Source: Candidatus Undinarchaeales archaeon SRR5007147.bin71 (GTDB lineage: Archaea > Undinarchaeota > Undinarchaeia > Undinarchaeales > Undinarchaeaceae). Taken from it: a stretch of 30,017 nt of DNA. The notes under the pieces are model-generated. The model was not told the DNA's origin, made no database searches, and saw nothing but the letters and a program-made list of their open reading frames with translations. Position 1 is the stretch's first letter. Each line of letters begins with the position of its first letter. Positions 9,149 through 23,708 of this stretch are shown here, piece after piece. The DNA is taken from positions 1 through 30,017 of the forward strand of contig DVAE01000003.1 of the NCBI GenBank assembly GCA_014189675.1, given 5' to 3'. A program made the position numbers and the translations under genes.

Positions 9149-9178
9149 CTTCCCAATTTCATCTTAATTCGATAATCT

Positions 9179-9312
9179 GGGGCCATGGTGTAACCCGGGA
9201 GCACGGTTGGCTCCAGACATTTTGGAGCGCGGACCGCGGAAAGCGGAGTGAAGAATATTCGTGCTTTGTTGGTGGAAACCAGCAAGTCTGGGTTCAAATC
9301 CCAGTGGCCCCA
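9179..9312 (+). tRNA. trnW: tRNA-Trp (CCA anticodon) with an intron
   Basis: The acceptor stem GGGGCCA (9179-9185) pairs with TGGCCCC (9305-9311), discriminator A at 9312; no CCA is encoded. The D stem is 9188-9191/9201-9204. The anticodon stem GTTGG (9206-9210) pairs with CCAGC (9279-9283), the anticodon CCA is at 9213-9215, and the T arm CTGGG-TTCAAAT-CCCAG spans 9288-9304. A 61-base intron interrupts the gene after position 37 (9217-9277); the boundary can slide by one or two bases because A and C are repeated at both ends. TGGA at 9273-9276 can pair with UCCA of the anticodon loop, as expected for a splicing motif, but a textbook bulge-helix-bulge is imperfect. No convincing C/D boxes are seen in the intron. 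Confidence 0.93.
9217..9277 (+). other. tRNA-Trp intron
   Basis: This 61-base insertion lies in the anticodon loop near the canonical 37/38 position. It contains a GC-rich hairpin (CCGC-GGAAA-GCGG, 9234-9246). Many euryarchaeal tRNA-Trp introns encode a box C/D guide RNA that modifies positions 34 and 39. Here a weak C-like GTGAAGA is present but no CTGA D box, and position 39 is C rather than U, so that function is probably absent. Removal would be by the EndA-like enzyme encoded at 19019-19552. Confidence 0.8.
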
Positions 9313-9337
9313 TCCTTTTCTACTCTTAAGCGTCAGC
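9298..9337 (+). repeat. 40-bp direct repeat, copy 1 (3' end of tRNA-Trp plus trailer)
   Basis: This copy covers tRNA positions 59-73 (ATCCCAGTGGCCCCA) and 25 bases of trailer ending GCGTCAGC. It is identical over 40 bases to 9381-9420, with an offset of 83 bases. Confidence 0.95.
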
Positions 9338-9341
9338 GAGG

Positions 9342-9349
9342 TTTTTTTT
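9342..9349 (+). terminator. Oligo-T terminator after tRNA-Trp
   Basis: A run of eight T lies 30 bases downstream of the tRNA. Oligo-T runs terminate archaeal RNA polymerase. The run is in the 43-base spacer between the two repeat copies, not in the repeat itself. Confidence 0.45.
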
Positions 9350-9380
9350 GTGCATCTTTTTTCTAAAAAAGTGCGTGGGG

Positions 9381-9420
9381 ATCCCAGTGGCCCCATCCTT
9401 TTCTACTCTTAAGCGTCAGC
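9381..9420 (+). repeat. 40-bp direct repeat, copy 2 (duplicated tRNA-Trp 3' end)
   Basis: This is a perfect copy of 9298-9337 that lacks the rest of a tRNA, so it cannot make a functional RNA. It begins inside GGGATCCC and follows a spacer ending AAAAAAGTGCGTGGGG. The arrangement is like the two attachment sites around an element inserted in a tRNA gene, with a repeat unit of only 83 bases. Confidence 0.9.
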
Positions 9421-9460
9421 AAGAGCAATCATCAAGATTTTCACTTACTACTTTCTAAAC

Positions 9461-20427: not shown

Positions 20428-22572
20428 CTATTTTTCTTCTATTGTATCAATGACACTTTCTATATACTCACTTTCAGGTTGTTTTTTACTTCTCTTTCGC
20501 TTCCCCTTTCCTTTTGATTTCGTGCTTTTCTTGCCTTTTGTTTTATCTTGTTCAGATTTCTCCGATTTTTCAAGGCTCTGAACTTTTCCAGTCAGTCCTT
20601 CCAGAACTTCTCTGAGTTCAACTGCCTCTTGGTGCGTTCTGTTAAATGAGGAAATCACTTCTTCAAGATTATTTATTAGTGTCTCAACCTCTTCAGGTGA
20701 TGCTCTTTCTGTACTCTCTTTCTTTGGTGTTTTATGTGATTCCTTAGTCTTCCCGAAATTTCTAAGCTCTATTTTACTTAGGTCAAGTCTTTCTCCACCA
20801 AGGACTTCTGCTGCCTCCACTTTCTGCGTTTCTGCCTGTTTGAGAATTCCCGCAATACCTGAAAAGGGAGCCGTTCTTTTATTATTACTCTTCTCTTCAC
20901 TATCCGCTTGTCCTGCGTCGGCTATTTCCAAAGCTTCCTTGATTATTGCCATCTCTTCATCGTCTTCCTTTTCTTTTCCAGATTTCATCCCATGCTTACT
21001 CCTCTGAGACCTTATATAATATGTCATTATTAGTGCAAGAATTGATATTCCAACTATCGCAGAAAGCAGTCCCTTCCCCCCTTTCATGAAGATGAAGAGC
21101 CCTGTAACAATACCTCCTCCAGCTACACCTTCGCCTGTTTCAGAGCGAACATCTATATTTATATTGGTGTAATCATAGTCTCCGTCAGAGCTCTTGATGT
21201 AGACTCTCATTGTGTGGTTTCCAATTGTGTTATTTCCAAAATTTATTGTGCTTGTTATATCTGCTTCCTGACCGAATCCGAGTGTGACATTATTCGGACT
21301 AATCGTTGCATTTATTTTGTCAACATAGATTCTGAAGCTTTTCGTAACTGTGTCTTTATTGTATACTCTGAGGCTCAGGTTAACTGAGCCTGTTCCATTG
21401 ATAAAAACTTCAGGAGTAAGGGTGTCGATTTCAGGTGAAAACTCACCCTGTTTTTCAACTACAATAAAGTTTATTTCTCTGCTTACGTCCCTCTCAGTTG
21501 AGCCGATAACTTCTGCTTCAAAACGAACACTGTATGTTCCAAGTTTGTCCTGTATTTTATCATTGTCTGTCTGTATCAAAAAGTCGAGTTTCTTGCTTTT
21601 CCCACTTACCAATGTTACATTTTGTTCTGCAGCTCGTTCACCGTTTATATTAAGATAAACTTTAGCATTTGTAGGATAGTCATTCTGAAAATCTCTGAAG
21701 TACACGTCTACTGAAAATAACATTTCTTCTCCCATTGTACTGCGTATTTTATCAGAGTCAACCGAAGGGTTTCGTAGTTCTATGTCATCATAATTCAGCG
21801 ACCCTGGTGTTGCTGTGTCAACCTGGTAAAGGTAGGAACTTTCAACTCTGATTGTTTCACTGTGATTAAGAAGAACTGTACTTCCTTCTGTGACATTCAG
21901 GCTTAGGGTGTAATTGCCCTCTTGCAGGAAACCAAGCTCGTCTGGTGTAAGCGTTGCTGTAAACCTTCCACTGTTGTTCGTATCAGGAATCAAATATTCT
22001 TTCAAAGCCTCATTGAGATATACCAAAATGCTGTAGTTTGCTCCAGTTCCGTTCTCTTTCAAATATCCTGTTATTGAAATACTCTGTTCGGCCTTGCTGT
22101 CCGCTCCGAATGTAATATTTCGTGGATATATGTCAAGGCTTACAAATTCAAGGTCCTTTAACACTGAAAAATTCATCTGAAGCTCATTGTTGCTCAGATT
22201 AGTGTCGTTTATGCTGTTGCCCGTATCATTAATATTATAGGATGCTGTAAAAGTATAATCTCCAGGAATTCCAGCTGTCCAGCTTTGTGTGTATGTTCTG
22301 CTTTCTCCGGCTGAAAAACCATTGTTGCTATCAATACTAGTCCAGTTTACTGATGCATTTGAATTTATTATATTGAAATAAACGCTGATATTTCCAACTG
22401 TCTCATTTCCAAGGTTTTTCAGACTTGTCTGAACCTCAAGAGGCTCACCTGAACGTATTTCAGAGTCATTGATAGATAAAGAGGTAATTTCTATGTCAAC
22501 AAAAGCGTGAGCAGGCGCTGTTATTAGTGCAAAAAACAAGACCACCATTCCCAAGATTTTAATGCCTTTCAT
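20428..22572 (-). CDS. Large CARDB-like surface protein with TM anchor and cytoplasmic coiled-coil tail
   Basis: The 714-residue protein has an N-terminal signal peptide (MKGIKILGMVVLFFALITAPAHA) and about 480 residues of extracellular beta-domains. The first (about 25-140) has the CARDB pattern (SEIRSGEPLEVQTSLKNLGN), and further Ig-like modules and many N-x-S/T sites follow. A Gly-rich stretch and one transmembrane helix (about 500-520) precede a 194-residue cytoplasmic tail with a helical coiled-coil region (PEEVETLINNLEEVISSFNR) and a Lys-rich segment near the end. The start at 22572 is chosen for the signal peptide; an in-frame extension to 22704 would run through the tRNA repeat region. 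It probably links the envelope to a cytoplasmic partner, perhaps the MinD encoded next to it, but this is inference. Confidence 0.8.
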   Translation of the reverse strand: MKGIKILGMVVLFFALITAPAHAFVDIEITSLSINDSEIRSGEPLEVQTSLKNLGNETVGNISVYFNIINSNASVNWTSIDSNNGFSAGESRTYTQSWTAGIPGDYTFTASYNINDTGNSINDTNLSNNELQMNFSVLKDLEFVSLDIYPRNITFGADSKAEQSISITGYLKENGTGANYSILVYLNEALKEYLIPDTNNSGRFTATLTPDELGFLQEGNYTLSLNVTEGSTVLLNHSETIRVESSYLYQVDTATPGSLNYDDIELRNPSVDSDKIRSTMGEEMLFSVDVYFRDFQNDYPTNAKVYLNINGERAAEQNVTLVSGKSKKLDFLIQTDNDKIQDKLGTYSVRFEAEVIGSTERDVSREINFIVVEKQGEFSPEIDTLTPEVFINGTGSVNLSLRVYNKDTVTKSFRIYVDKINATISPNNVTLGFGQEADITSTINFGNNTIGNHTMRVYIKSSDGDYDYTNINIDVRSETGEGVAGGGIVTGLFIFMKGGKGLLSAIVGISILALIMTYYIRSQRSKHGMKSGKEKEDDEEMAIIKEALEIADAGQADSEEKSNNKRTAPFSGIAGILKQAETQKVEAAEVLGGERLDLSKIELRNFGKTKESHKTPKKESTERASPEEVETLINNLEEVISSFNRTHQEAVELREVLEGLTGKVQSLEKSEKSEQDKTKGKKSTKSKGKGKRKRSKKQPESEYIESVIDTIEEK

Positions 22573-22600
22573 ATTCACTACTTTGCAGTGATAATTTTGG

Positions 22601-22608
22601 TATATAAG
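22601..22608 (-). promoter_or_regulatory. TATA-like box of the CARDB-like surface protein
   Basis: The minus strand reads CTTATATA, about 33 bases before the ATG at 22572, implying a leader of only a few bases. Confidence 0.55.
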
Positions 22609-22621
22609 CTTTGCTTCTGTG

Positions 22622-22644
22622 AATTTAAGTGGGACTGGCCGGAT
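22622..22644 (-). repeat. 23-bp direct repeat, distal copy (duplicated tRNA-Phe 3' end)
   Basis: On the minus strand this is ATCCGGCCAGTCCCA (tRNA-Phe positions 59-73) followed by the eight-base trailer CTTAAATT. It is identical to 22731-22753, with an offset of 109 bases. It is not part of a complete tRNA. As in the tRNA-Trp case it begins at tRNA position 59 inside GGATCC. Confidence 0.93.
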
Positions 22645-22711
22645 CCTCAGCACTTTTTCCCTCGTCGCTTTGCTCCTCAGCAAAACCTGCGAAAAACACG
22701 ACAAGCGTGAG

Positions 22712-22730
22712 ATACCTGCTTCTCAGGTAT
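22712..22730 (-). terminator. Hairpin just downstream of tRNA-Phe
   Basis: ATACCTG-(5)-CAGGTAT is a perfect 7-bp stem that starts directly after the tRNA-Phe trailer repeat. It could help end or process the tRNA transcript, or be part of the inserted spacer. A second 6-bp stem (TTTGCT/AGCAAA) is at 22669-22684. Confidence 0.4.
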
Positions 22731-22753
22731 AATTTAAGTGGGACTGGCCGGAT
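22731..22753 (-). repeat. 23-bp direct repeat, proximal copy (3' end of tRNA-Phe and trailer)
   Basis: This is the genuine 3' end of tRNA-Phe plus its trailer, identical over 23 bases to 22622-22644. Confidence 0.93.
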
Positions 22754-22812
22754 TTGAACCAGCGACACCCAGATCTTCAGTCTGGTGCTCTCCCAGGCTG
22801 AGCTACAGTCCC
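22739..22812 (-). tRNA. trnF: tRNA-Phe (GAA anticodon)
   Basis: Read on the minus strand, the acceptor GGGACTG pairs with CAGTCCC, followed by discriminator A at 22739; no CCA is encoded. The D arm GCTC-loop-GAGC, the anticodon stem CCAGA/TCTGG with loop CTGAAGA (anticodon GAA) and the T arm GCTGG-TTCAAAT-CCGGC are all well formed. There is no intron. The tRNA is 74 bases long. The synthetase genes for it, pheS and pheT, are in the same window. Confidence 0.97.
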
Positions 22813-22871: not shown

Positions 22872-22892
22872 GTCCAATTTCCTATGGCTAGT

Positions 22893-23708
22893 ATGGTTCA
22901 TATTACAAAGGCTGATGGAAGCCGCGCAGTTTTCAAAAAAAGCAAAATCGTCGGAACCTGCCTCCGCTCAGGTCTTTCAAAAGATGTAGCAGTCAAAATC
23001 GCGGATGAACTTGGTCGTAGTGTTTATGAAGGTATGCGAACCCGAGAAATTCTGAAAAAGACACTAACTCTTATAGACAAACACGAATCGAAACAACATA
23101 AATACAAGTATAATTTGAAGCAGGCAATAGCAGAACTTGATCCTGAGAACAATCAGTTTGAAAGATTTGTTACTCATCTTTTCAGAGAGCTTGGATATAA
23201 AACTCGATGGAATGTAATTGTGCAGGGGGAAGCTATTGAGCATCAGATAGATTCTCTTCTTGAAAAGGACGGGCTAAAACTTCTGGTAGAGTGCAAGCAT
23301 CACATAAATCCTCACCGTCTTACAGGCCTTGGAACCGTTCTGACTACTTGGGCTGTTCTCGACGACGTTCGAAAAGGTCCAAATCCTTATAACAACATAT
23401 GGCTTGTCAACAATACAAAATTTTCAAACCACGCAAAAAAATATTCTGCCGCCAAGAAAATGAAACTAATTGGCTGGAATTTTCCTAAAGGAGGCTCTCT
23501 ACCTGAACTAATAGAAAAAACACAGTCCTATCCTGCAAATATTATTTCTATGAGCGCAAAGGAGAGAAAGGTCATAATGGCTAATAATATCCTTCTTGTC
23601 AAAGAGCTTGCCTCATGCAGACCGGACTCTCTGAGCAAAAAAACAGGTCTGAAAAAGTCGCGTGCTGAAGAGCTCGTTGGAAAAGCAAAGACATTACTCA
23701 AGGCTTAG
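22893..23708 (+). CDS. ATP-cone domain plus PD-(D/E)XK endonuclease-like protein
   Basis: The 271-residue protein has an N-terminal ATP-cone (about 1-85: ITKADGSRAVFKKSKIVGTC through REILKKTLTLID), the nucleotide-sensing module best known from ribonucleotide reductase and NrdR. A restriction-endonuclease-like core follows: E-x2-ID at about Asp120, then VECK with Glu133 and Lys135, the metal-binding and catalytic residues of the Mrr-like PD-(D/E)XK fold. The C-terminus (SCRPDSLSKKTGLKKSRAEELVGKA) looks like a helix-hairpin-helix DNA-binding unit. It may be a nucleotide-regulated DNA repair or defence nuclease; the true role is not established. An alternative ATG at 22884 adds three residues. 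Confidence 0.8.
   Translation: MVHITKADGSRAVFKKSKIVGTCLRSGLSKDVAVKIADELGRSVYEGMRTREILKKTLTLIDKHESKQHKYKYNLKQAIAELDPENNQFERFVTHLFRELGYKTRWNVIVQGEAIEHQIDSLLEKDGLKLLVECKHHINPHRLTGLGTVLTTWAVLDDVRKGPNPYNNIWLVNNTKFSNHAKKYSAAKKMKLIGWNFPKGGSLPELIEKTQSYPANIISMSAKERKVIMANNILLVKELASCRPDSLSKKTGLKKSRAEELVGKAKTLLKA

Follow-up and report, generated by a model that had tools for sequence, protein, structure and literature searches.

The casposase of A. boonei acts at the 3′ end of a tRNA-Pro gene, where it needs the T-loop motif TCAAATC and produces a 14–15 bp target duplication downstream of that motif (PMC6614799), and the tandem use of one target has been described for casposons (PMC6563490). The short cassettes that we describe here, situated behind archaeal tRNA genes, are reminiscent of family 2 casposons (the A. 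boonei type) in that both use tRNA 3′ ends and T-loop sequence for targeting, duplicate their target and occur as tandem insertions. However, casposons encode Cas1 and a polymerase and have terminal inverted repeats, whereas the cassettes are gene-free and inverted ends are not apparent by eye; the 14–15 bp casposon duplications also start further downstream, while those of the cassettes extend for about 16–43 bp from the T-loop.

In archaea, the ordinary source of tRNA gene fragments is integrated elements of kilobase size (PMC9897764). Islands and proviruses integrated by tyrosine integrases resemble the cassettes in that copies of the tRNA 3′ end border the insert and the tRNA gene remains intact, but they are kilobase-sized and carry their own integrase and an attP site, whereas the cassettes measure 40–95 bp, are related to one another and occupy many tRNA genes. 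MITEs and the intergenic hairpin repeats of the REP/ERIC type are, like the cassettes, short, non-coding, palindromic and dispersed; however, MITEs have terminal inverted repeats and short duplications of fixed length, and REP/ERIC repeats are not confined to tRNA genes. Elements of the IS200/IS605 type and RAYT-moved REPs need a Y1 transposase, for which none of the six genomes analysed here returned a match over the cut-off. Finally, SINEs and other target-primed retroposons share with the cassettes a fixed 3′ end, a truncated 5′ end, duplications of variable length and microhomology at the 5′ junction, but no reverse transcriptase was found in the six genomes and the cassette target is limited to tRNA 3′ ends.

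The window, by which we mean the whole analysed stretch of 30,017 nucleotides, belongs to the genome (G000) of an uncultivated archaeon, which comprises 623,718 bases in 39 contigs and is 83% complete. On its reverse strand lies an intact tRNA-Phe(GAA) gene (22738–22812; ARAGORN; Rfam RF00005, 67.1 bits), the 3′ end of which occurs twice. An earlier note on this DNA had reported a 23-base repeat of this end at a distance of 109 bases, and the repeat, AATTTAAGTGGGACTGGCCGGAT, is indeed exact at both sites, with a proximal duplicate at 22731–22753 (reverse strand; tRNA positions 59–73 plus trailer) and a distal one at 22622–22644 (reverse strand), the starts being 109 bases apart. Read on the tRNA strand, it consists of ATCCGGCCAGTCCCAC followed by TTAAATT and begins at T-loop position 59. 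Between the copies lies an 86-bp insert (22645–22730, reverse strand), termed type A, which has homologues behind tRNA-Ile, Thr, Val and Arg and is absent from the corresponding site in the related genome G001. The neighbourhood includes a gene (22884–23708) that encodes an Mrr-type restriction endonuclease domain and starts ~70 bases past the 5′ end of tRNA-Phe, and a 758-aa frame (20428–22704) that overlaps the cassette if its TTG at 22704 is taken as the start; for the CARDB-domain protein of this frame, the ATG at 22572 is the likelier start.

The second target gene in the window, an intron-containing tRNA-Trp(CCA) on the forward strand (9178–9315; ARAGORN with introns allowed; Rfam, 45.6 bits), shows the same arrangement. 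A proximal 43-nt copy of its 3′ end with 28 nt of trailer (9298–9340, forward strand) and a distal copy (9381–9423, forward strand) are 98% identical over 43 nt and 83 bases apart, and they enclose a 40-bp insert, GTTTTTTTTGTGCATCTTTTTTCTAAAAAAGTGCGTGGGG, termed type B (9341–9380, forward strand; site empty in G001, with 114/128 matching positions after excision). The earlier note's statements that both repeats begin at A59 in the T-loop and that both distal copies begin within GGATCC hold, each distal copy being preceded by GG.

To establish how widely such scars occur, we searched the flanks of all 39 tRNA genes of G000 for a copy of the gene's own 3′ end with ≤3 mismatches in 16. Downstream copies were found at 12 of the 39 genes (Trp, Phe, Ile, Thr, Val-TAC, Arg-GCG, Lys-CTT, Pro-TGG, Pro-GGG, Ser-TGA, Glu-CTC and Glu-TTC), compared with 4/7,800 trials on shuffled flanks and 43/1,482 mismatched pairs of tRNA and flank. 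These rates exclude chance as the source of the scars, as the earlier note had argued from the first two genes, and the scan that it had proposed thus added ten. Genome-wide searches for repeats, profile matches and distant copies covered 528 kb (85%) of G000. tRNA genes account for ten of the close direct repeats (≥15 bp) in these 528 kb; the remainder, not inspected individually, look like repeats within coding sequences. When the tRNA-Phe region was used as a query against G000, matches spanning spacer and tRNA were obtained behind tRNA-Ile, Thr, Val and Arg, the spacers being 78–93% identical to that of tRNA-Phe. Both results run counter to the outcome that the earlier note had named as refuting, in which other tRNA genes would lack such repeats and the spacers would not align beyond chance. 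Not anticipated in the note were the different sub-families at Trp and Phe, the varying length of the duplications, the covarying hairpins of the inserts and the lack of an integrase in the genomes searched. A nucleotide profile of the type A insert matched 10 places in the 528 kb (E < 0.003), and 10/10 adjoin tRNA genes; among them, the cassettes at Leu-TAG and Leu-GAG are in reverse orientation and their duplication is not visible, a point against the insertion model set out below.

Two further tRNA loci of G000 drew our attention. At tRNA-His (C29, L159:5542–5690), a 22-bp duplication on the 5′ side surrounds a small hairpin and, on the opposite strand, begins with ATCCGGGCC, resembling the T-loop edge of the other sites. 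The tRNA-Leu(GAG) and tRNA-Leu(TAA) genes (L007 and L042) have a common trailer of >45 nt, which suggests conversion between tRNA loci with their flanks included.

The inserts are gene-free, about 40–95 bp in length, and could be sorted into related families. Type A (about 86–95 bp) is present at Phe, Ile, Thr, Val-TAC and Arg, with shorter versions at Pro-TGG and Glu-CTC, and contains three hairpins, the last two of which are separated by TTTTT. In the tRNA-Phe cassette, all on the reverse strand, these are hairpin 1 (ATACCTG...CAGGTAT, 22712–22730), identified by folding and by pair counts on the type A alignment; hairpin 2 (CACG-cttgt-CGTG, 22697–22709), followed by TTTTT at 22692–22696 and showing two-sided changes in 3/4 pairs among six copies; and hairpin 3 (22650–22690), where pair counts point to a stem of a T-run and an A-run around the conserved core GAGGAGCAAAGCGACGAGG. 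The base of the hairpin 3 stem differs by sub-family when compared by eye (GCA/TGC vs ATCAAT/ATTGGT). Covariation of the whole structure among the six copies scored 0.242 vs 0.149 in shuffled alignments, a value reached in 0/500 shuffles; slid versions scored ≤0.126, and two-sided changes occur at five pairs. As the alignment comprises six related sequences, this support for the hairpins is good without being overwhelming. Type B (about 40–66 bp; Lys, Trp and Glu-TTC in G000, Val-GAC and Glu-TTC in G001) consists of a T-run followed by a T/A-run hairpin, with a first hairpin ahead of the T-run in full-length copies. The inserts at Pro-GGG and Ser are distinct from both types.

Comparison with two relatives of the same genus (G001 and G002; the genus is represented by incomplete metagenome-assembled genomes, 75–86%) revealed that the insert is often absent from the orthologous tRNA genes. 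When one unit, comprising the insert and one copy of the repeat, was excised in silico from G000 and the remainder aligned to the relative, the sequences matched without gaps at Arg (125/130, G002), Val-TAC (126/130, G002) and Phe (124/130, G001), and with one short gap at Thr (124/129, G002). The filled and empty orthologous sites thus show that the events are insertions with target duplication. The Arg, Val-TAC and Trp sites are empty in both relatives, which makes insertion in the G000 lineage the parsimonious direction. The relatives have cassettes of their own: G001 at Val-GAC and Ser-GCT, with a degenerate tandem version at Ser-TGA; G002 at Pro-TGG and at Leu-TAG, the latter broken by an assembly gap. 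An assembly artefact is argued against by the presence of different filled sites, in correct synteny, in three separate assemblies. The cassette, with filled and empty orthologous sites as well as dispersed homologous copies, can be classed as a very small, non-autonomous mobile unit that duplicates its target. The earlier note's proposal that a single mechanism produced both scars, and that a very small element targeting tRNA genes may be involved, is strengthened by the scars at ten further tRNA genes, the homologous spacers and the matching empty sites.

The junctions display a consistent asymmetry. The inner edge hardly varies, lying at tRNA positions 57–59 in the T-loop, while the outer edge of the duplication ranges between about +1 and +28 of the trailer, giving duplications of about 16–43 bp (mostly 16–23 bp; 28 bp at Glu-TTC, 30 bp at Glu-CTC and 43 bp at Trp). 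Likewise, the right end of the insert mostly reads ...GG and the left end is variable; at Glu-CTC, Glu-TTC and Pro-TGG, trailer and cassette have a T-run in common, within which the junction lies. The variable duplication length is poorly explained by a transposase of fixed stagger, and we infer that a model of staggered breakage and templated repair fits these features best. The tRNA 3′ end would be opened by a staggered break that cuts the T-loop at a near-fixed point and the trailer at a variable one; the cassette would be joined by its right end (usually ...GG) to the T-loop cut, its left end would be joined, or truncated, at the T-run of the trailer or another short homology, and fill-in of the overhangs would yield the second copy of the tRNA 3′ end. 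Spread from one tRNA gene to another may proceed by templated repair, with the cassette and its attached tRNA 3′ copy as the template, or alternatively through a trans-acting enzyme from outside the four families that we searched for. The near-constant inner edge argues for a sequence-specific cut, and a copying model alone leaves the cutter unexplained. There is a hint of copying at Val-GAC in G001, where the second copy has G59 and A63, as does the second copy at Glu-TTC, instead of its own A59 and G63; these bases fit copying from the cassette of another tRNA, and mutations are also possible. As a statistical pattern, homology-guided spread is weak: association of cassette sub-family with T-stem sequence gave p values of 0.05–0.17, and a post hoc test of a single position gave 0.015. 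We rejected simple tandem duplication as the initial event, since empty sites lack the insert and it does not recur past the second copy; the tandem units at Pro-GGG and Ser-TGA probably did arise by tandem duplication.

We ran profiles of four enzyme families on six genomes (G000–G005, three from the genus and three from the same order; 75–98% complete). The target region used here is that of the A. boonei casposase, with its T-loop motif TCAAATC, casposons also occur in tandem and at the 3′ ends of protein genes (PMC6614799, PMC6563490), and tandem units are likewise present in our set. The cassettes could thus be miniature casposon-like elements, for which a helper's Cas1-type integrase would make a staggered cut at the tRNA 3′ end and duplicate the target in the manner of a CRISPR repeat. 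We consider this unlikely, as Cas1 (PF01867) was found in none of the six genomes (controls positive, 9/14), the published duplication starts ~8 bp past TCAAATC and measures 14–15 bp while those seen here start inside the motif and measure about 16–43 bp, and inspection of the extracted elements, by eye only, revealed no apparent terminal inverted repeats. The fixed right end, truncated left ends and variable duplications are also what would be left if RNA from the cassette, which is structured and possibly transcribed, were reverse transcribed from a nick in the T-loop, a target-primed, SINE-like process on a bacterial scale. However, no RVT_1 domain (PF00078; controls positive) was detected in the six genomes, three of them from the same genus, and retroposition appears quite improbable. 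The Y1 transposase profile (PF01797; controls positive) returned nothing over the cut-off in G000–G005. That a gene was missed in all three incomplete genomes of the genus is unlikely but possible. A viral carrier was sought with three exact cassette patterns in IMG/VR, which yielded no matches, and an exact cassette pattern likewise had none in a set of genome contigs.

Identity blocks that start in the T-loop are reportedly typical of integrase sites, an observation attributed to Williams in 2002. The direct repeat of the tRNA 3′ end with the tRNA restored, as observed here, is what the att sites of an ordinary tyrosine-integrase island or provirus would leave once its interior had been deleted, this being the usual origin of tRNA 3′ fragments (PMC9897764). 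Against this, the interiors at different tRNA genes are homologous to one another and similar in size, and the integrase that the earlier note had suggested might be encoded elsewhere did not materialize, since no Phage_integrase domain (PF00589; controls positive, 14/14) was found in G000 or its five relatives. Moreover, no distant copy of any tRNA 3′ end was detected in 528 kb of G000, and a larger integrated element with distant att copies was rejected accordingly. Att scars are thus a very improbable origin. Equally improbable is a role of the hairpins as functional terminators or structured trailers that gene conversion distributed and selection retained, with the repeats as a by-product. 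A hairpin with a T-run does look like a terminator, related hairpins adjoin tRNA edges in distant archaea, and a long trailer is common to two Leu tRNA genes; however, conversion alone would import the 3′ end of the donor tRNA, whereas the second copy matches the recipient, and many orthologous tRNA genes lack the hairpin. On balance, we regard it as probable that gene-free, multi-hairpin cassettes inserted at tRNA 3′ ends and duplicated their target through staggered breakage and templated repair as set out above.

Beyond the genus, a covariance model of type A returned matches in 11 of 297 archaeal genomes (E 0.01), some of which are related hairpins and others look like chance matches. In one more distant archaeon (G013), a related hairpin follows a protein gene and is itself followed by a 30-bp copy of the end of that gene; judging from the translated end, the gene probably encodes TFB, and the locus is divided between two overlapping contig ends. 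In the same genome, the region upstream of tRNA-Ser(CGA) contains two hairpin cassettes that are separated by a partial copy of the tRNA 5′ end (L191:1423–1564). Hairpins of similar general design adjoin tRNA edges in G064, where, at tRNA-Arg (L046:1489–1683), a degenerate tRNA-like stretch is surrounded by two copies of a 65-bp unit made up of a hairpin and the tRNA 3′ end.

A different picture emerged in G003, which belongs to another family of the same order. Its tRNA-Phe gene (L275:5560–5688) is flanked by a 23-bp duplication that runs from the T-loop outward, and the 83-bp insert contains an open frame and is unrelated to the other inserts; 723 kb of G003 yielded no further copy or source of it. 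A broader reading would make tRNA 3′ ends general landing sites, at which some machinery captures short DNA of any origin and duplicates the tRNA end in the way that a CRISPR repeat is duplicated, so that trailers would become small cassette arrays. We consider this proposal unlikely, and a single case does not suffice to conclude that arbitrary DNA is captured; if repeated, it would be the observation of most weight. Separately, a palindrome of ~65 bp (TAATTTAACATCGG...CCGATGTTAAATTA) or its relatives lies directly behind the tRNA-Arg(TCT), Glu(TTC), Lys(TTT) and Ala(CGC) genes of G003 (L220, L230, L231 and L234), without duplication.

The best reading of these data is that the cassettes represent a previously undescribed class of mobile mini-cassettes that use tRNA 3′ ends. 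In the open-access literature on casposons, MITEs, tRNA, DPANN and templated insertion, we came across no account of gene-free hairpin cassettes at tRNA 3′ ends; with this mostly open-access basis, their novelty is likely, though not proven. In practical terms, the cassettes explain tRNA fragments that annotation programs would miscall. For the organism, they amount to recent and recurrent insertion that is aimed at tRNA genes yet leaves these unbroken, in a reduced archaeal genome with no member found of the four enzyme families searched for. They offer a test case for the origin of tRNA 3′ ends as common landing sites, for minimal mobile units and, possibly, for a link between the targeting of tRNA ends and the duplication of CRISPR-like repeats.
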